From the NCBI GenBank assembly GCA_025356095.1, contig JANXUR010000036.1:1-64000 (forward strand): DNA of 64,000 bases, written 5' to 3'. This DNA comes from Acidobacteriaceae bacterium. GTDB taxonomy: Bacteria > Acidobacteriota > Terriglobia > Terriglobales > Acidobacteriaceae. Below, piece after piece: positions 38,366-61,399 of this stretch. The translations under genes were made by a program, and so were the position numbers. Numbering within the stretch: position 1 is the first letter of the stretch; each line of letters opens with the position of its first letter. The notes under the pieces are model-generated. The model was not told where the DNA came from. It was given only the letters and a program-made list of their open reading frames with translations, and did not search any database.

Positions 38366-38384
38366 GTCCGAAGGAGTGCATACG

Positions 38385-40370
38385 ATGAGCGAAGCTTTCT
38401 CTCCCTCTCGCCCGCACAGCGAGCGAAAGCAGTCTCCGTGGGAGGCATTGTTGAGAGGCGTGTCCTCGGGCATCGAGAGCGCGCAGAAATATTTGTTCTC
38501 GATTCAGCACGAAGATGGTTACTGGTGCGGTGAGCTGGAAGCCGATACCACGCTTGAGTCCGACTACATCATGCTGCATACCCTGCTGGGCACGGGGAAT
38601 CCGGAACGGTTCCGCAAGGCCTGCAACTGGATTCTTGCCCACCAGAATGAAGACGGCGGTTGGCCGATTTATGAGCTGGGCCCCTCAGAAATCAGCGCCT
38701 CGGTCAAGGCGTATTTCGCACTGAAGCTGAGCGGCTACACGGCTGAGAGTCCAGCGCTGGAACGCGCCCGCCGCAAGATTGTGGCGATGGGCGGCATTAC
38801 TCGCTGCAATACCTATACCAAGATTTATCTGTGCTTCTTCGGCCAGTATGACTATGATGCCGTGCCAGCGATTCCGCCGGAGATGGTGCTGTTTCCGAAC
38901 TGGTTCTGGTTCAACATCTACGAGATGTCCTCGTGGTCGCGCGGCATTTTTATGCCGCTGGCCATCGTCTATGCCAAGAAGCCGTTCAAGAAGATCTCAC
39001 CAGAGATGGCGATTGACGAGCTCTTCGTGGGGGGCAAGGAGAAGGCGAATCTTCATCTGCACTGGGACACTCGCCGCATTGTCAGTTGGCGCAACTTCTT
39101 TCTGGCGGCAGATCGTCTGACCCATTGGCTGGAGCGCTTTCATGTGCGTCCTCTGCGTTCGGTGGCGATCAAGGCGACCGAGAAGTGGATGCTGGAGCGT
39201 TGCGAAAAGAGCGACGGCCTGGGTGCGATTTTCCCAGCCATGATGAACTCGATCATCGCGCTGCGGTGTCTTGGCTATTCGGTGGACGACCCACTCTTCA
39301 TCCGCGCCATGGATGAACTGGAGCAACTTGGAATTGAAGAGGAAGACACCTTCCGGATGCAGCCTTGCAAATCGCCGGTATGGGACTCGGTGTATGCCAT
39401 GTTCGCGTTGAGCGAGAGCGGTGTGGATCGGACGGAGCCCAAGCTGGTGCAGGCCGCCGACTGGGTGTTGAAGAAGCAGGTGACTCACCCCGGCGACTGG
39501 TGCGTCAAGAATCCTGGAGTGGCTCCTGCAGGCTGGTATTTTGAGTTCAACAATGAGTTTTATCCGGATGTGGATGACACCGCGCAGGTTTGCCTCGCGT
39601 TGAACCTGATTGACCATCCCAACGAGCGTTACCAGAGTGATAGCTTGCAGCGGGCGATTGATTGGGTGTTTTCGATGCAGTGCAAGAACGGCGGCTGGGC
39701 TGCGTTCGACAAGGACAACACCAAGATGGTCTTTCAAAATATTCCGTTCGCTGACCACAATGCCATGCTCGATCCGCCGACGGTGGACATTACGGGCCGG
39801 GTGCTGGAGATGCTGGCTGCGCGGGGCTACACCCGCGCCGACAAGCGCATGCGGCGGGCCATAGACTTCATCGTCCGCGAGCAGGAGCAAGACGGTTCGT
39901 GGTTCGGCCGTTGGGGCTGCAACTACGTTTATGGAACCATGCTGTGCCTGCGTGGTTTAGAAGCCATTGGGGTGGATCGCAACGAACCCTACATGCTGCA
40001 AGCGGTGGAGTGGCTGCGCATGGTACAGAATACCGACGGTGGCTGGGGCGAAACGCTGGGTTCGTATGACAACCCGGTGTTGCGCGGCGTAGGGCCAAGC
40101 ACAGCCTCGCAGACGGCGTGGGGCGTGATGGGGCTCGTAGCTTCGGGCGATTTGCGCAGCGAGAGTGTGCACCGCGGAGTGGAATGGCTGCTGAAGAATC
40201 AGTTGCCCAGCGGCTCGTGGAAGGAAGTTCCGTACACGGGTACTGGCTTCCCGCGGGTTTTTTACCTCAAATATCACATGTACGCGGAGTACTTTCCGTT
40301 GCTGGCGCTGGCAGCGTATCGTCGCGCCATGGGCATGGTGGCAGGCAGCGACAGCGCACGCTCGGCGTAA
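38385..40370 (+). CDS. shc: Squalene-hopene cyclase
   Basis: About 661 residues. The catalytic acid motif DVDD is at about residues 395-398 (PDVDDTAQVC), and QW-type repeats such as QNEDGGWPIYE, QCKNGGWAAF, QDGSWFGRWGCNY and QNTDGGWGETL are spread over the two alpha-barrels. It is a monotopic membrane enzyme turning squalene into hop-22(29)-ene (diploptene) and diplopterol. ATG 38385 follows AAGGAG by 8 nt; the in-frame start at 38376 overlaps that site. It is the second gene of the locus. Confidence 0.97.
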   Translation: MSEAFSPSRPHSERKQSPWEALLRGVSSGIESAQKYLFSIQHEDGYWCGELEADTTLESDYIMLHTLLGTGNPERFRKACNWILAHQNEDGGWPIYELGPSEISASVKAYFALKLSGYTAESPALERARRKIVAMGGITRCNTYTKIYLCFFGQYDYDAVPAIPPEMVLFPNWFWFNIYEMSSWSRGIFMPLAIVYAKKPFKKISPEMAIDELFVGGKEKANLHLHWDTRRIVSWRNFFLAADRLTHWLERFHVRPLRSVAIKATEKWMLERCEKSDGLGAIFPAMMNSIIALRCLGYSVDDPLFIRAMDELEQLGIEEEDTFRMQPCKSPVWDSVYAMFALSESGVDRTEPKLVQAADWVLKKQVTHPGDWCVKNPGVAPAGWYFEFNNEFYPDVDDTAQVCLALNLIDHPNERYQSDSLQRAIDWVFSMQCKNGGWAAFDKDNTKMVFQNIPFADHNAMLDPPTVDITGRVLEMLAARGYTRADKRMRRAIDFIVREQEQDGSWFGRWGCNYVYGTMLCLRGLEAIGVDRNEPYMLQAVEWLRMVQNTDGGWGETLGSYDNPVLRGVGPSTASQTAWGVMGLVASGDLRSESVHRGVEWLLKNQLPSGSWKEVPYTGTGFPRVFYLKYHMYAEYFPLLALAAYRRAMGMVAGSDSARSA

Positions 40371-41955: not shown

Positions 41956-42942
41956 GTGAAGGCGTTTGTGACGGGCGCTACGGGCTTTCTGGGTAGTCAT
42001 GTGGCCAAGGTGTTGGCCGAACAGGGCGCGTCCCTACGGTTGCTGGTGCGGGCTACCAGCGACTTGCGGAACATCGCGTCGCTCGCCGCCGAGCACGTAA
42101 CCGGAGATTTGCGGCAGCCGGATTCTCTGCGTCGCGCCATGGCTGGGTGCGATGCCGTTTTTCACGTGGCCGCCGACTACCGCCTGTGGGTGCGCGATCC
42201 GCAGGAGATGTACCGTTCGAACGTGGAAGGGACGCGCGCGATTTTGGCGGCAGCCCGCGAGGCTGGCATTGAGCGCGTCGTTTATACCAGCAGCGTGGCG
42301 ACCATGGGGTTCACTCAGGATGGACCCGTTGTGGACGAAAATTCTCCGGTGTCGCTCGCGAGTATGATTGGTCACTATAAACGGTCGAAGTTTATGGCGG
42401 AGCAAGTGGCAATTGACGCTGCCCGGGCGGGGCAGCAAGTGGTGATCGTAAATCCCACCACGCCAATCGGTGAAGGTGACCTGAAACCCACGCCCACGGG
42501 CCGCATCGTGCTGGACTTCCTGAAGCGCAAATTCCCGGCCTACGTGGATACCGGGCTGAATCTGGTGGATGCCACCGAATGTGCTCGTGGACATCTAATG
42601 GCTTATGAAAAGGCGCGCCCGGGGCAGAGGTATATTTTGGGCGGGGAAGACCTTACACTGAAAGGTTTACTGGATAAGCTGGGCGGAATAACGGGTTTAC
42701 CCTCGCCCACCGTAAAGGTGCCGTTTTTTGTGGCTTTCGGCGCCGCAGTGGTAGATGAAGTCTTTACGGGGTATTTGCGGGGCAGGGAGCCGCGAGCCAC
42801 CATGGAAGCAGTTCGGATGGGTCGGAAGAAGATGTTCGCGTCCTCTGCCAAAGCGGAGCGGGAACTGGGTTGGAAGATGGTGCCAGTGGAAGGTGCATTG
42901 CGGCGCGCTGCCGCGTGGTATCGGGGGAATGGCTATGTGTAG
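41956..42942 (+). CDS. hpnA: Hopanoid-associated NAD-dependent sugar epimerase HpnA
   Basis: 328 residues of extended short-chain dehydrogenase fold. The Rossmann motif is TGATGFLGSHVA, and the catalytic YxxxK is in GHYKRSKF. The sequence around YTSSVATMG and NPTTPIGEGD resembles HpnA. Named for its place in hopanoid clusters, its reaction is not settled. It begins with GTG immediately after the peptidase stop codon (no gap) and overlaps hpnG. These features point to tight co-translation. Confidence 0.88.
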   Translation: MKAFVTGATGFLGSHVAKVLAEQGASLRLLVRATSDLRNIASLAAEHVTGDLRQPDSLRRAMAGCDAVFHVAADYRLWVRDPQEMYRSNVEGTRAILAAAREAGIERVVYTSSVATMGFTQDGPVVDENSPVSLASMIGHYKRSKFMAEQVAIDAARAGQQVVIVNPTTPIGEGDLKPTPTGRIVLDFLKRKFPAYVDTGLNLVDATECARGHLMAYEKARPGQRYILGGEDLTLKGLLDKLGGITGLPSPTVKVPFFVAFGAAVVDEVFTGYLRGREPRATMEAVRMGRKKMFASSAKAERELGWKMVPVEGALRRAAAWYRGNGYV

Positions 42943-43645: not shown

Positions 43646-44785
43646 GTGGACATGACTGATTCCACTCTTCTGGATGTAGCACCTGCGCAGCGCGTGCGGC
43701 CCATTCCTGCCACTATGCTGGCGGCGGTGTACCACGGTGTAAACGACGTGCGACTGGAAACGGTTCCGGTTCCGGTGATTGGCAGGGGCGAGATTCTGCT
43801 GCAAGTGGATACCTGTGGGATTTGCGGCACGGACTTGAAGAAGATTGCCACCGGATCCCACTCCGCACCGCGCATTTTCGGGCATGAAACGGCGGGGACA
43901 GTCGCTGCGGTGGGCGATGGAGTAGTGCGCTTCAAAGTCGGAGACCGGGGAATGGCGTTCCACCACATTCCGTGTCGCGACTGCTTCTATTGCCAGCGCA
44001 AAGTGTTTGCGCAGTGCCCCACCTACAAGAAGGTAGGATGTACGGCTGGGTTTGAGCCTAGCGGCGGCGGCTTCGCGGAATACGTTCGCGTAATGGATTG
44101 GATCGTGAGCGACGGTGGAGTGGTGCCCATTCCCGACGAAGTGAGCTTCGAGCAGGCTTGTTTCGTGGAACCGGCGAATACCTGCATCAAAGGGATTATG
44201 AGCATGGGGCTGCAAGCCGGAGATCAGGTGCTGGTGATTGGGCAAGGGCCCATCGGTATCATGCTCTCGGTTTTGGCGCGGCGGGCGGGTGCCCGTGTAA
44301 TAACTTCCGACCTTTACTCGCAAAGACTTACAATGGCTGAAAGGGAATTTGGTCTCGGCTGTCATGTGGATGCCTCGCGAGAGGATACGGTGTCGCGCGT
44401 TCGCGAATGGACGGATGGCCGTGGTGCCGATGCTGCGATTCTTGCAGTTGCCGGAAACAGCCTGATACAAGTTGCACTGGATGCAGTACGGCCGGGCGGT
44501 AAAGTGATGTTGTTTGCACAAACGCAGCGCAGCGAGGCCACCATTGACCCTTCTGCGGTTTGCGTGGACGAAAAGACGCTGCTGGGCTCCTATAGCGCGT
44601 CGGTGGATTTACAGGACGACTCTGTTCGATTTGTGTTCAGCCGAGAGATGAATCTCGAACGGCTGATCAGTCACCGTTATTCCCTCACCGATGCAGTAGA
44701 GGCTTTGCGCGTAGCGGCACATCCGCAACCGGACACACTGAAGATCGTGATCCAGCCGGGACTGACCGCGAAAGGAAGTGCTTAG
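43646..44785 (+). CDS. Zinc-dependent medium-chain dehydrogenase 1 in hopanoid operon
   Basis: 379 residues. Catalytic zinc motifs: CGICGTD and GHETAG. Structural zinc cysteines: CRDCFYCQRKVFAQC. The Rossmann motif GQGPIGIMLS follows. It resembles threonine/sorbitol-type alcohol dehydrogenases. The substrate is not evident. It sits between hpnG and hpnC, with GGAGG 11 nt before a GTG start. A plausible job is oxidoreduction of the sugar part of a ribosylhopane; this is inference only. It is followed at once by a second dehydrogenase. Confidence 0.8.
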   Translation: MDMTDSTLLDVAPAQRVRPIPATMLAAVYHGVNDVRLETVPVPVIGRGEILLQVDTCGICGTDLKKIATGSHSAPRIFGHETAGTVAAVGDGVVRFKVGDRGMAFHHIPCRDCFYCQRKVFAQCPTYKKVGCTAGFEPSGGGFAEYVRVMDWIVSDGGVVPIPDEVSFEQACFVEPANTCIKGIMSMGLQAGDQVLVIGQGPIGIMLSVLARRAGARVITSDLYSQRLTMAEREFGLGCHVDASREDTVSRVREWTDGRGADAAILAVAGNSLIQVALDAVRPGGKVMLFAQTQRSEATIDPSAVCVDEKTLLGSYSASVDLQDDSVRFVFSREMNLERLISHRYSLTDAVEALRVAAHPQPDTLKIVIQPGLTAKGSA

Positions 44786-45834
44786 TGAGTCATTCGATGA
44801 ACGCGGCAGTTCTCTACGGCAAGGAAGATGTAAAAATCGAGCGGGTACCGATTCCTCGCCTAGGTGAGGGTGAAGTTCTGATTAAGGTGCAGGTGGCCCT
44901 GACCTGCGGCACGGATTTGAAGGTGTATCGGCGCGGCTATCATGCGCGCATGATTGTGCCCCCCGCGCTCTTTGGGCATGAACTTTCCGGAGTGATTCAA
45001 TCGGTCGGCCCCAACGTGAAGGACTTCCGCAAGGGCCAGCGGGTAGTGGCGTTGAACTCAGCCCCATGTGGCCGCTGCTTTCACTGTTCCCGGCATCAGG
45101 AAAACCTTTGCGAGGATCTGCTGTTCAACAACGGAGCTTACGCCGAGTACATCAAAGTGCCCAGGCGCATCGTTGAGCGGAACATGCTGGCAATTCCCGA
45201 TGGCGTCAGCTATCAGGACGCCGCCATGGTGGAACCGCTGGCCTGCGTGGTGCGCGGATTGCATGAAACTGGCGCAGAGATCGGCGATACGGTGGTGGTC
45301 ATCGGAGCCGGGCCTATCGGACTGATGTTCATGCAGGTTGCGAAAGTTTCGGGCTGTGATGTGGTAGCAGTGGTGAAACACGATAATCAGGTGAACGCGG
45401 CCAAGCGCATGGGCGCGAGCCAGGTGGTGCAACTAGGCAAGTCCGCCGACCCGATTGAATCGATCCGCTACTTGACCCCGGGGCGTCGCGGTGCAGACGT
45501 GGTGATTGAAGCTGTGGGCCGCCCGGAAGCGTGGGAACTTGCTACCGAGATGGTGCGTAAGGGCGGTACAGTGAACTTCTTCGGCGGGCCTCCGGCGGGC
45601 ACCAAAGTGCAGCTCGACACCAACCGTCTGCATTACTCCGAGGTAACGTTGAAGGCGACCTTCCACCACACGCCGGATATGGTGCGTAAGGCGTTTGCGC
45701 TGATTGTGGAACGCAAGGTGCAGGGCACGGATTACATCACGGGCGAGGTTCCGCTTTCCCGCCTGCAGCACGTATTTTCGCAGATGCTGCAAGCTGGGCG
45801 AGAGATCAAGACCGCCATCATCCCCTGGGAATAG
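44785..45834 (+). CDS. Zinc-dependent medium-chain dehydrogenase 2 in hopanoid operon
   Basis: 349 residues. CGTDLKVYRRG and FGHELSG are the catalytic-zinc positions; CGRCFHCSRHQENLC is the structural-zinc set. GAGPIGLMFMQ is the nucleotide-binding loop. It shares the family of the previous gene but is only moderately similar, so a heteromeric pair or consecutive steps are possible. The GTG start overlaps the previous stop by one base. The gene ends 14 nt before hpnC. Confidence 0.8.
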   Translation: MSHSMNAAVLYGKEDVKIERVPIPRLGEGEVLIKVQVALTCGTDLKVYRRGYHARMIVPPALFGHELSGVIQSVGPNVKDFRKGQRVVALNSAPCGRCFHCSRHQENLCEDLLFNNGAYAEYIKVPRRIVERNMLAIPDGVSYQDAAMVEPLACVVRGLHETGAEIGDTVVVIGAGPIGLMFMQVAKVSGCDVVAVVKHDNQVNAAKRMGASQVVQLGKSADPIESIRYLTPGRRGADVVIEAVGRPEAWELATEMVRKGGTVNFFGGPPAGTKVQLDTNRLHYSEVTLKATFHHTPDMVRKAFALIVERKVQGTDYITGEVPLSRLQHVFSQMLQAGREIKTAIIPWE

Positions 45835-45848
45835 GCGGCGGACGCTAC

Positions 45849-46811
45849 ATGACCGTTTCCGCCGAACCAGTAAACCCGACCACCCAACCTGCCGCAAACG
45901 CAGCAGGTTGGGAGCGCCTGCCGCCCCAATACGCCATTCCGGCACGGCCCCCGAGTCTGGCGGAAGCGCAGCACTATTGCCGCCGATTGGCGCGCAGTCA
46001 TTACGAGAATTTTTCGGTGGCATCGTGGTTTCTACCCAAGCGCTTTGAGCGCCACTTCTACAGCGTTTATGCCTATTGCCGCATCTCCGATGATTTGGGC
46101 GATGAAGTGGGCGACCCCGCACTTTCGCTGGCGCTGCTGAAGCAATGGGAGGGCGAGCTGGATGCTTGCTACGCGGGGTTCACTCGCCATCCAGTATTCG
46201 TGGCGCTGGCTGAGACCATCCGCGAGTGTGATATTCCCAAAGCGCCGTTTGCCAATTTGCTCACGGCATTCCGGCAAGATCAGCATGTGACGCGTTACCA
46301 AACCTTTGCCGACCTGCTGCGCTATTGTGAAAACTCTGCGAACCCCGTGGGGCGGCTGGTGTTGTATGTTTGCGGCTATCGTGATGAAGAGCGGCAGCGG
46401 CTTTCGGACTACACCTGCACGGCGCTACAACTGGCCAACTTTTGGCAAGATGTGAGCGTGGACTGGCAAAAGGGCCGCGTTTATCTTCCGCTGGAAGATC
46501 TAGGCCGCTTCGGCGTAACCGAATCGCAGATTGCAGAGGGCCGATTTTCTTCCACGTTTGCTGATCTGGTGCAGTTTGAGGTGGCGCGCGCACGGCAGTG
46601 GTTCGCCAGCGGCCAGCCACTGGTTCCCATGCTCGACCGCGAGTTGGCGGTGGATATTGATCTATTCAGCCGGGGCGGTCTGGCCATTTTGGAAGCCATC
46701 AAAAAGCAAGGCTACAACGTGCTGGCGCGGCGTCCGCAAGTGAGCAAGGGCCGCAAGTTGGGCTTGCTGGCGCGTGCCGTGAGCGGTCTGGCATTGGGGA
46801 AGCTGCGATGA
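45849..46811 (+). CDS. hpnC: Hydroxysqualene synthase HpnC
   Basis: 320 residues of the squalene/phytoene synthase family. RRLARSHYENFSVASWFLP is characteristic of HpnC. The first Asp motif is ISDDLGDE and the second ANFWQDVSVDW. HpnC turns presqualene diphosphate into hydroxysqualene; HpnD acts before it and HpnE after it. The ATG overlap with hpnD (4 bases) indicates coupling. The protein lacks the extra insert seen in the next gene. Confidence 0.93.
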   Translation: MTVSAEPVNPTTQPAANAAGWERLPPQYAIPARPPSLAEAQHYCRRLARSHYENFSVASWFLPKRFERHFYSVYAYCRISDDLGDEVGDPALSLALLKQWEGELDACYAGFTRHPVFVALAETIRECDIPKAPFANLLTAFRQDQHVTRYQTFADLLRYCENSANPVGRLVLYVCGYRDEERQRLSDYTCTALQLANFWQDVSVDWQKGRVYLPLEDLGRFGVTESQIAEGRFSSTFADLVQFEVARARQWFASGQPLVPMLDRELAVDIDLFSRGGLAILEAIKKQGYNVLARRPQVSKGRKLGLLARAVSGLALGKLR

Positions 46812-47770
46812 GCGCCGCCACGGAAGTCCCCGCGCAGCCAGTGTTTTCACCCACCAAATCGCAGCTCGACTTGGCCTACCTGATGTGCAGCGGGATCGCC
46901 CGCACTGCGGCCAAGAATTTTTACTACGGCTTTATGGCACTTCCGCGCCGCAAGCGGCTGGCATTGTGTGCGGTTTACGCGTTTATGCGCAAGTGCGACG
47001 ATATTTGCGACGACCCCAAGCTTCCGCTGGAAGAGCGGCGGGTTCTGCTGGGTAAATTTCTGGCTGGATTGCATGCGGCGCAAGCAGGCGAGCCCACCGA
47101 TGATCCCATCTATCTTGCCCTAACCGATGCCCAGCGCCGGTTCAGCATTCCCGCAGAACTGCTGGATCAGTTGGCCCAAGGCACGGCGATGGATTTGGAA
47201 GAAGAAGCGGCGGGCGCGGGAGTGGTTCATCGCAGCGGGCTTCCTGTGTTCCCCGTGTTCATGACCTATCGTACTTTCGAGGACCTGTATCCATACTGCT
47301 ACCGGGTAGCGTCGGTCGTCGGGCTGGTTTGCATCAAGATATTTGGCTACCAAAACCCCGAGGCGGAGCCTCTCGCCGAGCGTACGGGAATCGCCTTCCA
47401 GTTGACGAACATTTTGCGTGACCTGAAAGAAGACGCGTTGCAGTGCCGTGTGTATCTACCGCAAGATGAATTGCTGCGCTACGGTCGCACCGCGCTTGAG
47501 CTGCGCAATGGAGCCGATGCTGTGCTATGGCGTCCGCTCATGGCGATGGAGGCGGCACGGGCGATGGAGTTCTACCGGTCCGCCGAGAAGCTTATTCCCT
47601 TGGTGAACCCCGACAGCCGCGCGGCGCTGAAGGTGCTGGTCACCATCTACCGCCGGTTGCTGGAGAAAATGCAGCAGCGCGGCTACGATGTTTTTAGTCG
47701 GCGCATACGTCTAAGTACGAATGAAAAGTTGAGCATTTTGTTGCAAGCCCTATGGCGGCGCACGGCATGA
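46808..47770 (+). CDS. hpnD: Presqualene diphosphate synthase HpnD
   Basis: 320 residues. Asp-rich motifs are KCDDICDD and TNILRDLKED. The start YYGFMALPRRKRLALCAVYAF is typical. HpnD condenses two farnesyl diphosphates into presqualene diphosphate. Compared with what I know of the family, there is an extra stretch of about 17 residues between the MDLE helix and the YRTFEDLYPYCYRVAS helix (AAGAGVVHRSGLPVFPV). The end overlaps hpnE (ATGA). Confidence 0.92.
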   Translation: MSAATEVPAQPVFSPTKSQLDLAYLMCSGIARTAAKNFYYGFMALPRRKRLALCAVYAFMRKCDDICDDPKLPLEERRVLLGKFLAGLHAAQAGEPTDDPIYLALTDAQRRFSIPAELLDQLAQGTAMDLEEEAAGAGVVHRSGLPVFPVFMTYRTFEDLYPYCYRVASVVGLVCIKIFGYQNPEAEPLAERTGIAFQLTNILRDLKEDALQCRVYLPQDELLRYGRTALELRNGADAVLWRPLMAMEAARAMEFYRSAEKLIPLVNPDSRAALKVLVTIYRRLLEKMQQRGYDVFSRRIRLSTNEKLSILLQALWRRTA

Positions 47771-49257
47771 GTGCCGCGAAGCTGGAATCTTCCCCGCTCG
47801 GCAATCCCAAGGTAGCGAGCAAGGTAGCGAGCAAGGTCGCGAGCAAGGTCGCGAGCAAGGTAGCGATCATCGGTGGCGGCCTTGCCGGTCTCGCGGCCGC
47901 ATGTGCGCTGGCTGATGCGGGTGCGAAGGTTATCCTCTACGAGCGCCGACCCTACCTTGGTGGTCGAGCTTCGTCGTACGAGCACCCCGGCACTGGCGAA
48001 GTAGTGGACAACTGCCAGCACATCCTGCTTGGCTGCTGCACCAACCTGATTGACTTCTACCGCCGCATCGGTAGCGCGGACAAGATTCGATGGTACCGGC
48101 GGCTTACATTTTTGGAGCCCGGTGGCCGGGCTTCGCAGATTGAGCCGGGCCTGCTGCCTGCGCCGATGCACAACGGATTTTCGTTCCTCACGGCGCCCAT
48201 GCTGTCGCTTGGCGATAAACTGGGCATTGCCCGCGCGCTGCTAGCTCTGATGCCGCGATTGCCCGAGGATGACGGGCGTCCGTTTTCGGAGTGGCTGCAA
48301 CGTCACGCGCAGACCGCGAACGCCGTCAAGCGTTTTTGGGAGCCGGTGCTGGTGAGCGCGCTCAACGAAGATCTCGACAAGACCTCGACTGCGTACGCAG
48401 GCCTTGTCTTCCGCGACTCCTTTTTGAAGTCGGCGCGGGCGGGGGAAATGGGTGTGCCGATGGTGCCGCTCACCGACCTCTATGCTTCTGCCGCAAGCTA
48501 CATTCAACAGCGCGGGGGCGAAGTTCGAATGCGGGCATCGGTGAGTGGCATTGTGCCAACTGCCGACGGCGTTTGCATTGCCCTATCCAGTGGCGACGAA
48601 CTCGCCGACTATGCGATTCTCGCGGCACCGTTCGGGTCGGTCGCGAAGTTGCTGCCTCCGGGACTCGGGGCCGATGATCTCCGCGCCAAGGCTGCCCACT
48701 TTGAGCCTTCGCCCATTACGGGCATCCACCTGTGGTTTGACCGCGAGATTACGGAACTCGACCACGCCGTGTTACTCGACCGCACGATCCAGTGGATGTA
48801 CCACAAGTCGCGGATTCAGCGCGGCTACCGTGAGGCAAACACAGGTGCTCCCAACGAGCCGGGTAGCTACGTCGAGTTGGTAGTCAGCGCCTCGAAGAGT
48901 TTGGTGGAAATGCCGCGGCAGGAAGTGATTGACCTGGCTCTGCGCGAGTTGGCGGAGTTTTTCCCCATCGTCCGCGAAGCCAAGCTGCTGAAAGCGACCG
49001 TCGTAAAAGAAGTTCACGCCACGTTTTCGCCATTTCCGGGCTGCGATGAATATCGCCCGGCACCGGTTACGGTGTGGCCGCGCATCTTTCTAGCTGGCGA
49101 CTGGGTGCAGACCCACTGGCCTGCCACTATGGAGGGTGCGGTGCGCAGCGGCTATTTGGCGGCGGAAGCGCTGGCCCGAGCGGCTGCCATTGCACCCGGC
49201 AGCTTCCTCGTCGCCGATCTTCCGGCGCGCGGCCTGATGCGGCTGTTCCCGGAATAG
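47767..49257 (+). CDS. hpnE: Hydroxysqualene dehydroxylase HpnE
   Basis: About 496 residues of an FAD-dependent amine-oxidase/phytoene-desaturase fold. [20 protein letters not shown], followed by [16 protein letters not shown], is the nucleotide-binding region. The C-terminus carries [22 protein letters not shown], the second FAD motif. It reduces hydroxysqualene to squalene, the substrate of Shc. The N-terminus has an unusual KVAS-repeated leader (residues 15-34) before the FAD motif. ATG at 47767 is coupled to hpnD; an alternative is 47752. It ends the locus. Confidence 0.93.
47809..47868. repeat. 12-bp tandem repeat in hpnE 5' end
   Basis: Five copies of AAGGTAGCGAGC or AAGGTCGCGAGC encode Lys-Val-Ala-Ser four times, then KVAI. 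The repeat lies just before the FAD-binding motif. The unit is divisible by three. Confidence 0.92.
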
Positions 49258-55231: not shown

Positions 55232-55612
55232 TCAGATCGCCATAATCGCGACGCCAGCAGCCACGCAGGCGGCGGCAATCCAGCGCCGGGCATCCACTTT
55301 CTCTTGCAGGAAGATGCGAGCCGCGAACGCATTGGCCATGAAGGTAAGGGAGGCGGAGGCGGGCGCGACCAGACTGACGTCAGCCCAGGAAAGCGCCAGC
55401 AGGAGGCTGAAAAATCCAAAAGCCATGGCGGCGATGCCAAGAAAGAAAGTCGGCGTCTGAAAGATACGTTTGAAAACCGCCAACAAGCCGTGTTGCTGGT
55501 GCAACTTGCCCAAGTCGCCGACTCGCTTCATGGAGTAGGCCTGTAACACATCGCCTGCCGAGCCGAAAACGATAATCGCAAGTATGAATCCCCAAGTGTA
55601 AAGTGCCTTCAC
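55232..55612 (-). CDS. Half-size EamA-family membrane protein (ArnE/F-like), copy A
   Basis: 126 residues with four transmembrane helices. The motifs SAGDVLQAYSMKRVGD and LALSWADVSLVAPASA match the next copy. It begins inside the stop of copy B (ATGA). Half-size EamA pairs such as ArnE and ArnF translocate lipid-linked sugars across the inner membrane. The position after hpnJ suggests a hopanoid or glycolipid substrate, an inference. The protein is complete, not a frameshifted half of a full transporter, since both members have their own start and terminal helix. Confidence 0.7.
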   Translation of the reverse strand: MKALYTWGFILAIIVFGSAGDVLQAYSMKRVGDLGKLHQQHGLLAVFKRIFQTPTFFLGIAAMAFGFFSLLLALSWADVSLVAPASASLTFMANAFAARIFLQEKVDARRWIAAACVAAGVAIMAI

Positions 55613-56028
55613 GAGCGCACCTCGGGTGCGGGATTTTCGCCACCGTGTTGGTGCGTGGTGTTGTGGGGACTCTGCGCGACAAATCCTACTCCAGCCGCGA
55701 TAAGAAACACTCCCAGCCAGCGCAGGGGCGTCACCTGCTCGTGGAGAAAGACTTTGCCGAACACCGCCACCAGACAGTAACCGATGGAAGTTGCTGGAAG
55801 CACGTAGGTAAGGTCAGCCCAAGAAAGGGCCGTCAGGTAGCAACTGAAGAACCCAAGCAGCAGTAAGATTCCCACCAACACAAATGGGTTACTGACGGCA
55901 TGGAATACCGTGAAGAGATTGGAGAGCGAAATCTCGCCTACCTGCTTCATCCCAGCCGATAAAACAGTATCGCCGGCGGAGCTGAAGAACGCCACGCCGG
56001 CGAGGATCATCCCTCTGCGAAAATTCAA
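55609..56028 (-). CDS. Half-size EamA-family membrane protein (ArnE/F-like), copy B
   Basis: 139 residues with four transmembrane helices. It shares SAGDTVLSAGMKQVGE and LTALSWADLTYVLPATS with copy A, so the two arose by duplication. The C-terminus is polar and His-rich (HNTTHQHGGENPAPE). It lies 47 nt after the hpnJ stop and overlaps copy A. A heterodimeric transporter or flippase is the simplest reading. Confidence 0.7.
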   Translation of the reverse strand: MNFRRGMILAGVAFFSSAGDTVLSAGMKQVGEISLSNLFTVFHAVSNPFVLVGILLLLGFFSCYLTALSWADLTYVLPATSIGYCLVAVFGKVFLHEQVTPLRWLGVFLIAAGVGFVAQSPHNTTHQHGGENPAPEVRS

Positions 56029-56075
56029 GAAACCAGCCTCAGTGGTAACGCAAGGTGACGCAAACTCAGGTGCAT

Positions 56076-57563
56076 CTAGTCGGAGCCGACGTGAGCGCTG
56101 GCTACTGCGGAGATCGCATTGGCGTCATCGCGCCGCTTGGCCTTGACCCACTTGTTGCGTTCGCGGCGCAGCTTCAGGAACGACTTAGCTTCCTTATAGA
56201 GGCGTGCGCGGTCTTCCTTGGTAAATGCCGCTTTGTACAGAATGCGAAAAGCCGCCTTGGGTCGAAAGTAATATTCGTCGTAGAAGCGGTGCACGGCTTC
56301 AATCACGTCATCGGCGGGCAGACCGGGGTACTCGATGTGAGCCATCTGGTGGCCGTCATCGTCCACCATGCTTTCGGCGGTCAGGTAGCCTTTTTCTTTC
56401 ACGAACTCATACAACTCGGTGCCGGGGAAGGCGTGCGCGACCGAAACTTGAATGGTCTCGCAATCCAGTTCTTTGGCGAAGTTGATGGTTTCGCGAATCG
56501 TGTCGTGCGTCTCACCCGGTAAGCCAAGAATAAAGTCGCCATGGATCACCAGACCGAGCTTGTGCGCATCTTTGGTGAACTGACGGGCACGCTCGACGGT
56601 GGCACCCTTCTTGATGTTCTTCAGAATCTGCGCGTTACCCGATTCGTAACCCACGATCATCAGGCGGCAACCTGCGTCTTTCATCGCCTTCAGTGTGTCG
56701 TAGTCAGTGGTGACGCGCGAAGTGCATGACCAAGTGAGCCCCAACGGCTTCAGTTTTTCGCAAAGCTCGATGGTGCGCGCTTTTTGGATGTTGAAGGTGT
56801 CGTCGTCAAAGAAGAATTCCTTCACGAACGGCCAATATTCCTTGGCTTTCTTCATCTCAGCGACAATGTCGTCTGCCGAGCGCTTGCGCCACGGATGGCC
56901 GCTAAGCGTCTGGGGCCACAAACAGAAAGTGCATTGCGCCGGGCAGCCGCGCGTAGTGTAGAGCGACACGTACGGATGCAGCAGAAACGGAACATTGTAG
57001 CGACGCACATCGAGGTCGCGATGGTAGATATCGGTGGCGTGCGGCATGGCGTCGAGGTCTTCAACGGGAGGCCGGTCAGGCGTGGCGACGATCTGGCCGT
57101 CTTTGCGGTAGTTGATCCCGGCAATTTCCGCCAGTGGCTTACCGTTGGCAAATTCCACGGTAGCGAAGTCGAACTCACGGCGCACCACAAAATCAATATG
57201 CGGGCAATCGTTCAGCGCACGGGCGGGGGCTACCGTTACTGGCGGGCCCACGAAGGCGATCTTGATGGCCGGATTCGCTTCTTTGATCTTGCCCACCAGC
57301 AGCAGGTCGCCGGGCCAACCGGCAGTACTGGTGAAAAGCACCAAAAATTCGTACTGCTTGCAAATTTCAATGGTCTCTGCCGCCGTCACCTTGTGGGAAG
57401 GGGCATCCAGCAGCCGCGAGTCTTCCAGCATGCCCGCCGGATAGGCCAGCCATACCGGATACCAGTAGGATTCGATCTCACGAGTTGCAGGCCAGCGTGA
57501 GCCAGCACCACCATCAAAATTCTCAAACGACGGAGGATTTAGGAACAATGTTTTCAATGGCAT
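56076..57563 (-). CDS. hpnJ: Hopanoid-associated radical-SAM protein HpnJ
   Basis: 495 residues. The N-terminus KTLFLNPPSFENFDGGAGSR is characteristic of HpnJ. A cobalamin-binding-like domain covers about the first 180 residues, and the radical-SAM motif CPAQCTFC (CX3CX2C) lies near residue 210, followed by FFFDDDTFNI and GLPGETHDT. HpnJ is needed to form the cyclitol ether of bacteriohopanetetrol in producers such as Burkholderia. HpnI and HpnK, often neighbours elsewhere, are not in this window. It heads a unit with the two half-size EamA proteins. A 256-nt spacer, 57564-57819, separates it from tolC and shows no gene. Confidence 0.88.
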   Translation of the reverse strand: MPLKTLFLNPPSFENFDGGAGSRWPATREIESYWYPVWLAYPAGMLEDSRLLDAPSHKVTAAETIEICKQYEFLVLFTSTAGWPGDLLLVGKIKEANPAIKIAFVGPPVTVAPARALNDCPHIDFVVRREFDFATVEFANGKPLAEIAGINYRKDGQIVATPDRPPVEDLDAMPHATDIYHRDLDVRRYNVPFLLHPYVSLYTTRGCPAQCTFCLWPQTLSGHPWRKRSADDIVAEMKKAKEYWPFVKEFFFDDDTFNIQKARTIELCEKLKPLGLTWSCTSRVTTDYDTLKAMKDAGCRLMIVGYESGNAQILKNIKKGATVERARQFTKDAHKLGLVIHGDFILGLPGETHDTIRETINFAKELDCETIQVSVAHAFPGTELYEFVKEKGYLTAESMVDDDGHQMAHIEYPGLPADDVIEAVHRFYDEYYFRPKAAFRILYKAAFTKEDRARLYKEAKSFLKLRRERNKWVKAKRRDDANAISAVASAHVGSD

Positions 57564-57819: not shown

Positions 57820-59148
57820 TTAGGGCTGGCTGCCGACCCAAGCCTCAAGCTCGCCCGTGGCGCGCAACAATTGCACCCGGGCCCGCGTCAGGTCAAATTC
57901 GACATCTACCAGCGTGTCCTTGCGAAAATCGGCCTGCTGGTGAGATGCCTGAAGCTCCTTGAAAGTCGCGGTTCCGGCCTCGGCGCGTTGCATCGCCGCC
58001 TCAGACTCGGCCTGCGCCACCTCAGACTCCAGTCCGGCGACATCCCGCATCGCCGTCAGTTGCAGCACTGCTTGCCTCAGCCGGGCAGTCTCTTCAGCAA
58101 TGCGGTTGCGGATGACGTCCGCCTCTTGGCGCGCCCTGGCAGCATCTGCATCCGCGCCCTGAGCGCGCGCCTTCTGTTGGGCGTTGAAGATGGGCACACG
58201 CAGAGCGATGCCAATGTTGCCGTTGTGTCGCTGGAACTTTGTGAAAAACTCGTCGTAGTTGTTGGACTTGGAGAGCAAAGCGTACTGCCCCACCAGATCG
58301 AAAGATGGCAGCAGGGCACGATGCTCACCCTTGGCACGGATCGCCTCAGCGCTGGCGTGTTCGTCGGCGGCTTTGATGGCGGGGCTGGATGACACTGCCT
58401 TCTGGCGGGCATCCGCATCCGCATCCGCCTCGTGCAGTCCGGGGATGGAACTGGTGACGGTTTCAATTCCTGCCTCGGGCTGGCCCGTGAGCCATGCCAG
58501 ATGCGAGCGCAGCACACCGCTGGAACCATCGGCTTCTGCTCGCAAAAGCCGCAACCGGGCGGTGGCCAGCTTCGCCTTCTTGGCTTCAATCGGGGCGTCT
58601 ATGCCTTCGTGGATGCGCGCGTCCATATGGCTCTCCGCCTGCAGGGATTCGGCTTCCTGCTGCTGCAAGAGCGCGAGCTTGCGAGTCCATTTATCGAGCT
58701 CCGCGTAGGTAAGCACCGTATCTTGAATGGCCTCAATACGCTGCTCGTCGCTGCGAAAGCGGCTTGCGTTCCACTCCAGTCGGGCAGCCTTCACAAACTG
58801 GCGCTGTGCCGGGTTGAACACGGTGGCCGAACTGTTGACGTTTACAATCGAAGGCCCGGCACCGCCGATTAGCGGGAAGCCATACGAGTAGCCCGCACCC
58901 GAGCCTACTGTTAGTTGCGGAATGAACGAATCCTTCACTTCCTGATACGATTTTTCTGCTTTGAGGCTACCGGAGGCGGCAATGGCCATCGCCGGACTGT
59001 GCCCCAGAGCCAGTACGATGGCTTGTTGCAGTGTCATCGGCTCGGCATGGGCGGCGGCTGCGGTGGCCAAGAAAACGAAGCTAAGTGCTAAAAATTTAGC
59101 AGAGCAGCGTGCACGATCTGCAAACCAATCCAGAGATGGCAGGCGCAT
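57820..59148 (-). CDS. TolC-family outer-membrane efflux protein
   Basis: 442 residues. A signal peptide (FLALSFVFLATAAAAHA), then MTLQQAIVLALGHSPAM, and long helices of an OEP domain in two repeats. ADADADARQKA is a Glu/Asp-Ala repeat coded by GCATCC hexamers at 58409-58428. TolC proteins form the outer-membrane duct of type I secretion or efflux. It is the last gene of an adaptor-TPR-TolC run. No inner-membrane pump is adjacent. Confidence 0.9.
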   Translation of the reverse strand: MRLPSLDWFADRARCSAKFLALSFVFLATAAAAHAEPMTLQQAIVLALGHSPAMAIAASGSLKAEKSYQEVKDSFIPQLTVGSGAGYSYGFPLIGGAGPSIVNVNSSATVFNPAQRQFVKAARLEWNASRFRSDEQRIEAIQDTVLTYAELDKWTRKLALLQQQEAESLQAESHMDARIHEGIDAPIEAKKAKLATARLRLLRAEADGSSGVLRSHLAWLTGQPEAGIETVTSSIPGLHEADADADARQKAVSSSPAIKAADEHASAEAIRAKGEHRALLPSFDLVGQYALLSKSNNYDEFFTKFQRHNGNIGIALRVPIFNAQQKARAQGADADAARARQEADVIRNRIAEETARLRQAVLQLTAMRDVAGLESEVAQAESEAAMQRAEAGTATFKELQASHQQADFRKDTLVDVEFDLTRARVQLLRATGELEAWVGSQP

Positions 59149-59156
59149 AGTTGCGG

Positions 59157-60137
59157 TTAGCCCCTTCCCTGAAGTTTTCTCAATGATTCCTGCGCGGGAT
59201 GAAAGTCTCTTGCCAATGCCACCGCTGCCTTGTATTCCTGCGCGGCACCGGCCTTGTCACCCTGCTTTTCCAGCAATCGGCCTAGCACCCAATGCGCCCG
59301 GAAAATCGAATGATCTTCACTGGGCTGACCGCTAGCCAAGTACGTTCGCACCCACAGGGTTGCGAGCGGCAAATTCCGGTTCGCTTTGCCCAGCACTGTA
59401 GCCGATTCCAACAACACGCCCGACGACTTACCCTGCGCCAGCGCAGCCGCTTTGTTCAGCGCCGCATCCAAGTCGTCCCAACGTTGCCGCTTGGAGTAAA
59501 ACAGCGCCAGATTCAGCCACTGGCCGGCGGGCTCTTTCGCCGATTGTGTTGCAGACTTGTACGCCTGTTCCGCCTTGGCATCGTCCTTATCATTCTCGGC
59601 GAGGCGTCCGCGGATGTATTGCGCTATGCCGGGGTCGAGTGCGGCCACTGCTTCGGCTTGGCCGCGAGCCTTGTCTGCGCCGCCACCAACGATCCCGGGT
59701 GCTTCCATGTAGAACTCAGCCAGATCGGAGTGCGCGTCCACGTTGTGGCCATCAAGCTGTACTGCCTTTTCGAAGCTGTCGCGTACCCGCCGGGCTAGGC
59801 CCAACTGTGAAAAAACACTGGCTCGCTGAGCTTTCTCGCCGTAGGCGCGGCCCATCCACATCTGGAATTCACTGCGGTTTGGGTTCAGGTGAATCGCCGC
59901 TTCACAGGCCGTCACGGCGTCGTCCCAGCGTTCCACCGAATAATAAGCGCGACACAGCAGGTTGTGCGCCGGGGCATCATTTGGGTAGGTGCGCACCTGA
60001 CTCTGCAGCGTCGAGATTGCATCATCCACGCGACCCGCCACCAATAGTTCACGAGCCGACTGCGCCTGCGCGGAAGTTATGAGCCCGATGCTGCCAGCCA
60101 GCAAGGACAGAACGATGCGTTTTAGGAAGCGATTCAT
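59157..60137 (-). CDS. Periplasmic tetratricopeptide-repeat protein
   Basis: 326 residues. A signal peptide (IVLSLLAGSIGLITSAQAQ) and several TPR-like repeats, for example ELLVAGRVDDAISTLQSQV and APAHNLLCRAYYSVERWDDAVTACEAAI, with a helix-turn-helix pattern to the end. It presumably assembles proteins in the periplasm. It sits between the adaptor and TolC genes, with 5 and 8 nt gaps, so it is likely part of the same complex, a layout unlike standard RND or ABC operons. Confidence 0.8.
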   Translation of the reverse strand: MNRFLKRIVLSLLAGSIGLITSAQAQSARELLVAGRVDDAISTLQSQVRTYPNDAPAHNLLCRAYYSVERWDDAVTACEAAIHLNPNRSEFQMWMGRAYGEKAQRASVFSQLGLARRVRDSFEKAVQLDGHNVDAHSDLAEFYMEAPGIVGGGADKARGQAEAVAALDPGIAQYIRGRLAENDKDDAKAEQAYKSATQSAKEPAGQWLNLALFYSKRQRWDDLDAALNKAAALAQGKSSGVLLESATVLGKANRNLPLATLWVRTYLASGQPSEDHSIFRAHWVLGRLLEKQGDKAGAAQEYKAAVALARDFHPAQESLRKLQGRG

Positions 60138-60142
60138 CGAAG

Positions 60143-61399
60143 CTACTCCACGACCTGAACTTTGAGGCCGTCATGCAAGGGCTTGTTGTTCGTAGATCCA
60201 AGCGCCACTCGCGATCCGGGGTCGAGTCCTTCGGTCAGTTCATACTGGGTTAGATTCGACAAGCCGGTTTGTACGTTGTGTCGGCTGAGCGTGCCATTTT
60301 GAATGACGTACACATAGCGCACACCGTCATCCTGGCGCATGGCTTCGCGCGGCAATACCATCACGTTGTCATGCTGGGCCGTCACCACGGTTACCGTGAC
60401 GTTTACGTTCGGCAGCAACTGCAAGTCTGCGTTTTCCACCTGCACGGCAATTTCGCCGACGTTGCGGCTGCCGCGCAGTTTCACCACGGAGGGCAGCGCC
60501 GCCAGCTTGCCCTGCCACTTGCGGCCGGGCAGGGCGTCCCATGTGATGTTTACGGGCTGGCCCGTGCTGAGGCGACCCAAGTCCGGTTCGTCTATAAAGG
60601 CGCGAACCAGCATTTGCTTGAGCGGCGCTTGCTGCAGCAGCAAATCGCCGCCGTTGACGAATGCGCCTTGCTTGGCTGCGACCTGGTAAACCACGCCTTC
60701 ACGCGGCGCGCGGATGATGCATTTGGCTAGCGCCTCATTGGCGGCGGCGTAGTTGGCTCGCGCCTCCGAAGCCTGCGCGTCGGCGCGTTCCAAATCGCCA
60801 GCAGCAAAGCGATCTTTTTTCTTGTGGCCCAGCAGGTTCAGGTCGGTGTCAAGCCGCGCCAAATTACTCTCCGCCTCGCGCACTTCTCCGGCGGACGCGG
60901 CACCTTGCTGCTGCAAGCGCTTCAAGGCCTCGAGATTTTTGGCTGCGGTTTCGCGCTCGGCAGTGGTCTTGGTGAACTGCGCCCGGGTTACGAACACTTC
61001 CTCTTGCGTGCCGCCCTGATGCACGGCAGAGGCTTCCGCTTCTGCGCTTTTTAATTGCGCCACTGCGCGAGCCAGCGCAGCTTGCGCGTCGGCAACGTCC
61101 AGTTCCATCAGCAACTGTCCGGCTTTCACGCGGTCGCCTTCTTGCACCAGCAGCCGCCGCACCGTGGTGTTGTTCGGCGCGTGGGCCTCAAAGTTATCCA
61201 CGGTTTCAACTTTGCCATTCGTGGAAATCACACTGGTGATATTAGCGTGCGAGATGGTGGCCGCCCGCACCGGCACTGGCACCTCGCCGCTGCTGCGGAT
61301 CCAGAGAAAAGCCAGTAGGGCGAGCGCCCCGACCAAGGCAAGCGCCCGGCCCGGATAACGCTGCAATAAGTTCGGTTGCGGCTGCGTGCTATCTGCCAT
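60143..61399 (-). CDS. Periplasmic adaptor (HlyD/MacA-like membrane-fusion protein)
   Basis: 418 residues. An N-terminal membrane helix (ALALVGALALLAFLWI), a biotinyl-lipoyl-like domain split by a coiled-coil hairpin (about 75-215), and a beta-barrel and membrane-proximal domain (ISVISTNGKVETVDNFEAHAPN, KCIIRAPREGVVYQVAAKQGA). It is the first gene of the tripartite unit. The usual inner-membrane partner (RND or ABC) is not found between it and QueF. The next gene upstream, queF, is divergent. Confidence 0.88.
   Translation of the reverse strand: MADSTQPQPNLLQRYPGRALALVGALALLAFLWIRSSGEVPVPVRAATISHANITSVISTNGKVETVDNFEAHAPNNTTVRRLLVQEGDRVKAGQLLMELDVADAQAALARAVAQLKSAEAEASAVHQGGTQEEVFVTRAQFTKTTAERETAAKNLEALKRLQQQGAASAGEVREAESNLARLDTDLNLLGHKKKDRFAAGDLERADAQASEARANYAAANEALAKCIIRAPREGVVYQVAAKQGAFVNGGDLLLQQAPLKQMLVRAFIDEPDLGRLSTGQPVNITWDALPGRKWQGKLAALPSVVKLRGSRNVGEIAVQVENADLQLLPNVNVTVTVVTAQHDNVMVLPREAMRQDDGVRYVYVIQNGTLSRHNVQTGLSNLTQYELTEGLDPGSRVALGSTNNKPLHDGLKVQVVE

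Follow-up and report, generated by a model that had tools for sequence, protein, structure and literature searches.

Among described systems, close counterparts of the two small membrane proteins considered here include ArnE and ArnF, the undecaprenyl-phosphate-aminoarabinose flippase, which belong to the SMR superfamily and have been reported as a glycolipid flippase that moves a lipid-linked aminosugar (PMC9574504). The same review proposes that a lateral portal accommodates the lipid tail, and records that in the SMR lipid subtype the central Glu of TM1 is often Asn instead. On the hopanoid side, HpnI, HpnK and HpnJ modify the hopanoid itself in successive steps, HpnN carries hopanoids to the outer membrane, and the function of HpnL itself has not been established (PMC12583986). 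In the titles, abstracts and term counts of the open-licence literature surveyed, no report associated a protein pair of the type described below with hopanoids, and no passage of polar hopanoids across the inner membrane was described, only their later HpnN-dependent transfer to the outer membrane.

The stretch analysed (the window) comprises 64,000 nucleotides of an Acidobacteriaceae genome, and represents a hopanoid cluster, since beside hpnJ it contains ispH and, on the forward strand, shc for squalene-hopene cyclase (38376-40370; TIGR01507, 762.5 bits), hpnA (41956-42942; TIGR03466, 485.6 bits), hpnC (45849-46811; TIGR03464, 346.5 bits), an hpnD-like squalene synthase gene (46808-47770; TIGR03465, 225.9 bits, below the equivalog cut-off of 278.6) and hpnE (47752-49257; TIGR03467, 490.9 bits). 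Two zinc-type alcohol dehydrogenase-like genes, named tdh1 and tdh2 by eye, occupy positions 43646-45834 between an hpnG-like gene and hpnC, a position kept across many loci.

The hpnJ gene (56076-57563, reverse strand) encodes a B12-binding radical SAM hopanoid-tailoring enzyme of 495 residues with both a B12-binding (PF02310) and a radical-SAM domain (PF04055), the TIGR03471 score of which (749.5 bits against an equivalog cut-off of 577.6) places it within the HpnJ family. Downstream on the same strand lie the genes for two half-EamA subunits, each with four TM helices: E1 (55609-56028; 139 residues) and E2 (55232-55612; 126 residues), which scored 28.8 and 35.6 bits, respectively, against the Pfam EamA (PF00892) gathering cut-off of 28.2 bits. 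The stop of E1 and the GTG start of E2 share the four nucleotides GTGA (55609-55612), and the arrangement anticipated by the original prediction, hpnJ followed by two overlapping half-EamA genes, was thereby confirmed. A likely ribosome binding site for E1 (GAGG, 56037-56040) is located 8 nt upstream of a TTG start codon from which the N-terminus is homologous to those of its relatives; scans for promoters and terminators returned nothing above chance level. Both of the motifs predicted to be shared by the subunits were present in each: SAGD in TM1 of E1 (55969-55980), including Asp20, whose spacing along the sequence corresponds, judged by eye, to that of Glu14 in EmrE, and in TM1 of E2 (55550-55561), where Asp21 is the equivalent residue; and ALSWAD between TM2 and TM3 of E1 (55813-55830), with Ser69 and Asp72 invariant in 96 sequences, and, by alignment, between TM2 and TM3 of E2 (55379-55396). 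Comparison of the E1 and E2 family profiles gave a 99.9% probability of homology across 122 columns, so the two subunits are paralogues.

Like this pair, ArnE and ArnF are encoded by adjacent, overlapping four-TM genes for proteins of ~110-140 residues, the operon of which also encodes a glycosyltransferase and a deacylase, and the motif HExVSPxRW near TM4 of the pair has a counterpart, HEPVSPRHW, in ArnE. The predicted ArnE/ArnF-like character of the pair nevertheless stood only in part: hhalign returned probabilities of 91-92% against ArnE for both subunits, whereas similarity to ArnF was undetectable for either (0.3-0.6%), and scores of 19-21.5 bits against the NCBIfam ArnE and ArnF models fell far below the respective cut-offs of 92 and 99. 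A one-to-one correspondence, in which one subunit would be related to ArnE and the other to ArnF, was consequently rejected, both being weakly ArnE-related and neither ArnF-related. The systems differ further in the central residue of TM1, which is Asp in E1 and E2 of the window but Gln in ArnE and ArnF of E. coli, and in pathway, that of the pair being hopanoid and that of ArnE/ArnF being undecaprenyl-phosphate-based.

AlphaFold2 models of the single subunits (pLDDT 81.4 for E1 and 84.4 for E2) found their best PDB matches in Gdx-Clo and EmrE, with Z scores of 10.7-12.2 over ~102-109 residues, although the corresponding Foldseek E-values were only ~0.1 and Z scores of 11-12 are attainable by helical bundles generally. 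With that caveat, the models display, at Z scores of 10.6-12.2 to Gdx-Clo and EmrE, the EmrE-type four-TM fold of the SMR lipid subtype; the Asn at the centre of TM1 associated with that subtype is absent from the window, both subunits having Asp. Taken together with the family evidence, they support an EmrE/Gdx SMR-like fold for both E1 and E2. An acid-x6-Met-Lys/Arg arrangement occurs in TM1 of most members of both families, with the spacing of Glu14, Met21 and Lys22 in EmrE. In contrast to these likenesses to EmrE and Gdx, sequence identity is only ~14-18%, Pfam assigns the pair to EamA, and its context is one of lipid synthesis.

These structural matches bear on the reading that E1-E2 exports cations or drugs in the manner of SMR transporters and is carried along with hpnJ by hitch-hiking or through a shared stress response. 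EmrE and Gdx are the closest solved folds, and the acidic residue of TM1 is kept, a feature shared with proton-coupled SMRs but not with ArnE/ArnF: in 96 sequences of each family the position was Asp in 81, Asn in 14 and Glu in one for E1, and Asp in 73 and Glu in 23 for E2. The existence of stand-alone pairs (see below) lends this reading further support. Against it, the Pfam search that assigned EamA to both subunits yielded no SMR match, linkage of the pair to hopanoid genes survives reordering in several families and travels with hpnK-hpnI when hpnJ is elsewhere, and HpnL-type genes replace the pair in its slot; an exporter of this kind is accordingly judged a distinctly unlikely identity for E1-E2.

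The strong excess of Lys and Arg in loops 1 and 3 of E2 (bias -8 in the window; family mean ~-9, range -12 to -6) makes an N-out/C-out orientation likely for this subunit, and the bias of E1 is near neutral (-1.6 without and +1.0 with the C-terminal tail). The paired heterodimers of the SMR superfamily have subunits of opposite Arg/Lys bias, about +4/-4 (PMC9574504). In a phylogenetic tree in which many branches were weak and that of ArnF was very long, E1 and E2 fell on opposite sides for most families, and the first and second halves of stand-alone pairs fell mostly on the corresponding sides; the separation of E1 from E2 across most families indicates that the pair is old.

Every one of the 80 named acidobacterial loci has E1 on the strand of hpnJ and downstream of it, at a distance of no more than ~260 bp in 78 of them, and E2 was the next gene wherever the contig permitted, except in L113, where no E2 was found after E1. 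The gap between E1 and E2 was -4 nt in 70 of 99 pairs, a count in which some places appear under two locus identifiers. At one locus hpnJ and E1 are separated by an inserted PIN-domain-like toxin gene (L070:11764-12180), recognised by inspection. The adjacency of hpnJ, E1 and E2 is not a matter of chance.

An even sample of the phylum (297 genomes, of which 48 carried hpnJ at E <= 1e-100 and 249 did not), with pair presence counted from match tables at an E1 profile score of ~120 bits or more, established that co-occurrence extends far beyond the window genome, as the original prediction proposed should be checked: both halves were present in 43 of the 48 hpnJ-bearing genomes compared with four of the 249 lacking it (Fisher p ~2e-41, a value that ignores kinship of the genomes and so overstates their independence). 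Other phyla were represented by 20 hpnJ-bearing plasmid records, with the gene neighbourhood read for three of them, and the plasmid collection contained no match to E2.

Linkage of the pair was common to seven family-level groups of differing gene order: hpnJ-E1-E2 in the family of the window and the 80 named loci; hpnJ-E1-E2-hpnI in families f2 and f50 (L131, L132, L136); hpnJ-hpnK-E1-E2-hpnI in families f32 and f10 (L123, L127, L128, L129), with hpnI on a separate contig in G051; hpnK-E1-E2-hpnI in G291 (L145/L154), where the contig has no hpnJ; and hpnK-E1-E2 in G267 (L146). The pair is therefore associated with the whole HpnI/HpnK/HpnJ glycosylation branch, and not with hpnJ alone.

This pattern bears directly on the proposed substrate, which the original prediction had taken to be a cyclitol-ether hopanoid; that identification was not supported, linkage of the pair to hpnI and hpnK being as strong as that to hpnJ and the window genome being without canonical hpnK. 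HpnI is encoded in that genome (G000:C117), its score of 314-315 bits exceeding the cut-off of 310, and canonical hpnK was found neither there nor in the other genomes of the window family included in the tree. The sole HpnK-like protein of the window genome (G000:C93:42319-43185, equivalent to L184:7319-8185) scored 206 bits against a cut-off of 232.6, and is a paralogue placed outside the canonical HpnK clade with a support of 100/100; families f32 and f10 possess both this paralogue and canonical HpnK, the gene for the latter scoring over the cut-off and adjoining hpnJ. A 2017 survey recorded the same gap in hpnK, in subdivision 3 as well as in subdivision 1 (PMC5462960). That the window genome makes the cyclitol ether through the published pathway was accordingly not accepted, and, canonical hpnK being missing, a cyclitol-ether substrate is not established.

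Inspection of pair-less genomes that carry hpnJ disclosed what takes the place of E1-E2. The orders hpnI-hpnJ-hpnK-hpnL and hpnJ-hpnK-hpnI-hpnL were recorded in G029 and G278, respectively; since the scores of these hpnL genes (112 and 152 bits) lie under the TIGR03476 cut-off of 195.65, the label HpnL-type rests on similarity and position. A third genome (G192) is compatible with the same pattern, but its hpnJ/hpnK and hpnL are at the ends of two contigs. In G208, hpnJ and hpnI flank an unrelated gene and no match to the pair or to HpnL was detected, and in G030 the HpnJ match was low (347 bits, under the cut-off) and no shc was detected. Among Proteobacteria, Mycetohabitans has overlapping hpnI-J-K-L genes, Paraburkholderia graminis has hpnJ-hpnI-hpnL, and Methylobacterium bullatum has hpnL close to hpnI-hpnJ-hpnK. 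The window genome yielded no HpnL match at 1e-5, and the pair occupies the place of HpnL in most of the sampled hpnJ-bearing Acidobacteriota. Like the pair, HpnL (TIGR03476; LPG_synthase_TM) is a membrane protein with its gene among hpnI/J/K, and its family is termed flippase-like; unlike the pair, it is a single protein of ~350 residues from another Pfam family, E1 and E2 matching EamA instead. Exchange with HpnL-type genes in a common slot fits a flippase role for the pair, a plausible reading that this exchange strengthens.

The same exchange helps to assess the suggestion that E1-E2 transports nothing and instead anchors HpnI and HpnJ to the membrane or assists their assembly. Direct translational coupling and closeness to the enzyme genes would suit such a role, whereas the conserved polar residues within the helices and the transporter fold would not, and HpnI and HpnJ are also encoded where HpnL replaces the pair. 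An anchor or assembly factor is thus regarded as highly improbable.

Half-EamA genes also occur in other settings. Stand-alone E1-E2-like pairs were located away from hpn genes in four genomes (G215, G169, G201 and G074; loci L171, L172, L173 and L174) in which no shc, hpnI or hpnJ was detected, and two further genomes contain a second pair apart from their hpn genes (L175, L176). Strict specificity of the pair for hopanoids was consequently rejected, and relatives of the pair must serve other purposes too. Five genomes that have hpnI and shc but no hpnJ match (G037, G066, G196, G274 and G235) carry a single half-EamA gene beside hpnI or behind hpnK, the placement in G196 and G274 being judged from coordinates; the four single forms that were read have Gln at the TM1 position, like ArnE. 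Clusters of the form hpnI-(hpnK)-single half-EamA-DegT aminotransferase-SDR were observed in hpnJ-less acidobacteria (L177, L178, L179, L180), an organisation that suggests an additional sugar modification of hopanoids not yet described. In a sixth genome with hpnI and shc but no hpnJ match, G203, the EamA-DegT-SDR group and hpnI are on different contigs.

Such clusters raise the alternative that the pair, while belonging to the hopanoid module, moves some other cargo that it needs, for example a lipid-linked or free aminosugar or another head-group donor, in place of the finished hopanoid. In favour are the occurrence of a single half-EamA gene followed by DegT aminotransferase and SDR epimerase genes in hpnJ-less lineages (G066, G235), the lipid-linked aminosugar cargo of ArnE/ArnF (PMC9574504), and the inclusion among EamA/DMT proteins of nucleotide-sugar transporters, to one family of which (PF04142) E1 gave a weak match. 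The stepwise action of HpnI, HpnK and HpnJ on the hopanoid (PMC12583986) means, however, that there is no known requirement for an additional carrier; moreover, the protein that replaces the pair in its slot belongs to the flippase-like LPG_synthase_TM family, and casual inspection noticed no DegT or SDR genes beside the pair in hpnJ-bearing loci. A cargo other than the hopanoid therefore appears unlikely, and a flippase for HpnI-branch hopanoids is the best explanation of the pair, on account of its exchange with HpnL, its EmrE/Gdx fold and its membership of the superfamily that includes ArnE/ArnF.

Upstream of hpnJ on the reverse strand are genes for a TolC-family outer membrane factor (57820-59148; PF02321), a neighbour conserved in many loci, a TPR protein (59157-60137) and an HlyD/MacA-like periplasmic adaptor (60143-61399; TIGR01730, 139 bits), and this HlyD-TPR-TolC group precedes hpnJ in many loci. 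At L131:10645-15515 a MacB-type permease gene, recognised by inspection, lies between those for TPR and TolC, and MacB-type permeases were also present near hpn genes at L133:3618-9277 and L119:334-2812. HpnN, which resembles the proposed pair in being concerned with hopanoid trafficking but is a large RND protein carrying hopanoids to the outer membrane (PMC12583986), was over its cut-off in none of 41 hpnJ-bearing genomes. At the level of a guess, the HlyD-TPR-(MacB)-TolC system may provide an onward route for hopanoids to the outer membrane as an alternative to HpnN.

With regard to the role of E1-E2 itself, HpnI, HpnK and HpnJ presumably work at the cytoplasmic face, and for this reason the products of the HpnI branch would need to be turned over. 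It is reasonably probable that E1-E2 is an SMR/DMT-fold heterodimer that transfers polar hopanoids, the products of the cytoplasmic HpnI/(HpnK)/HpnJ branch, across the cytoplasmic membrane from its inner to its outer leaflet. E1 and E2 would form a small heterodimer, probably antiparallel, in which E2 is fixed N-out/C-out, and by analogy the dimer would grip the polar head and leave the hopane within the bilayer; the dimer and its antiparallel arrangement, like the transport, its substrate and its direction, are features that we infer. A broader and more tentative proposal, which we consider possible though somewhat less than evenly likely, is that the pair and HpnL are unrelated dedicated flippases for sugar-bearing hopanoids, swapped in most hpnJ-bearing Acidobacteriota, and that together with the linked MacA-TPR-(MacB)-TolC genes they may form an export route in place of HpnN. 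If true, hpnI/J/K loci in general would encode their own flippase.

The flipping of sugar-bearing hopanoids across the inner membrane thus has a good candidate in E1-E2. The presence of two unrelated candidates, E1-E2 and HpnL, in one slot makes the question of hopanoid flipping directly testable, and cultured relatives that carry the pair are available in Silvibacterium and Acidobacterium, among them Silvibacterium bohemicum and Acidobacterium sp. S8.
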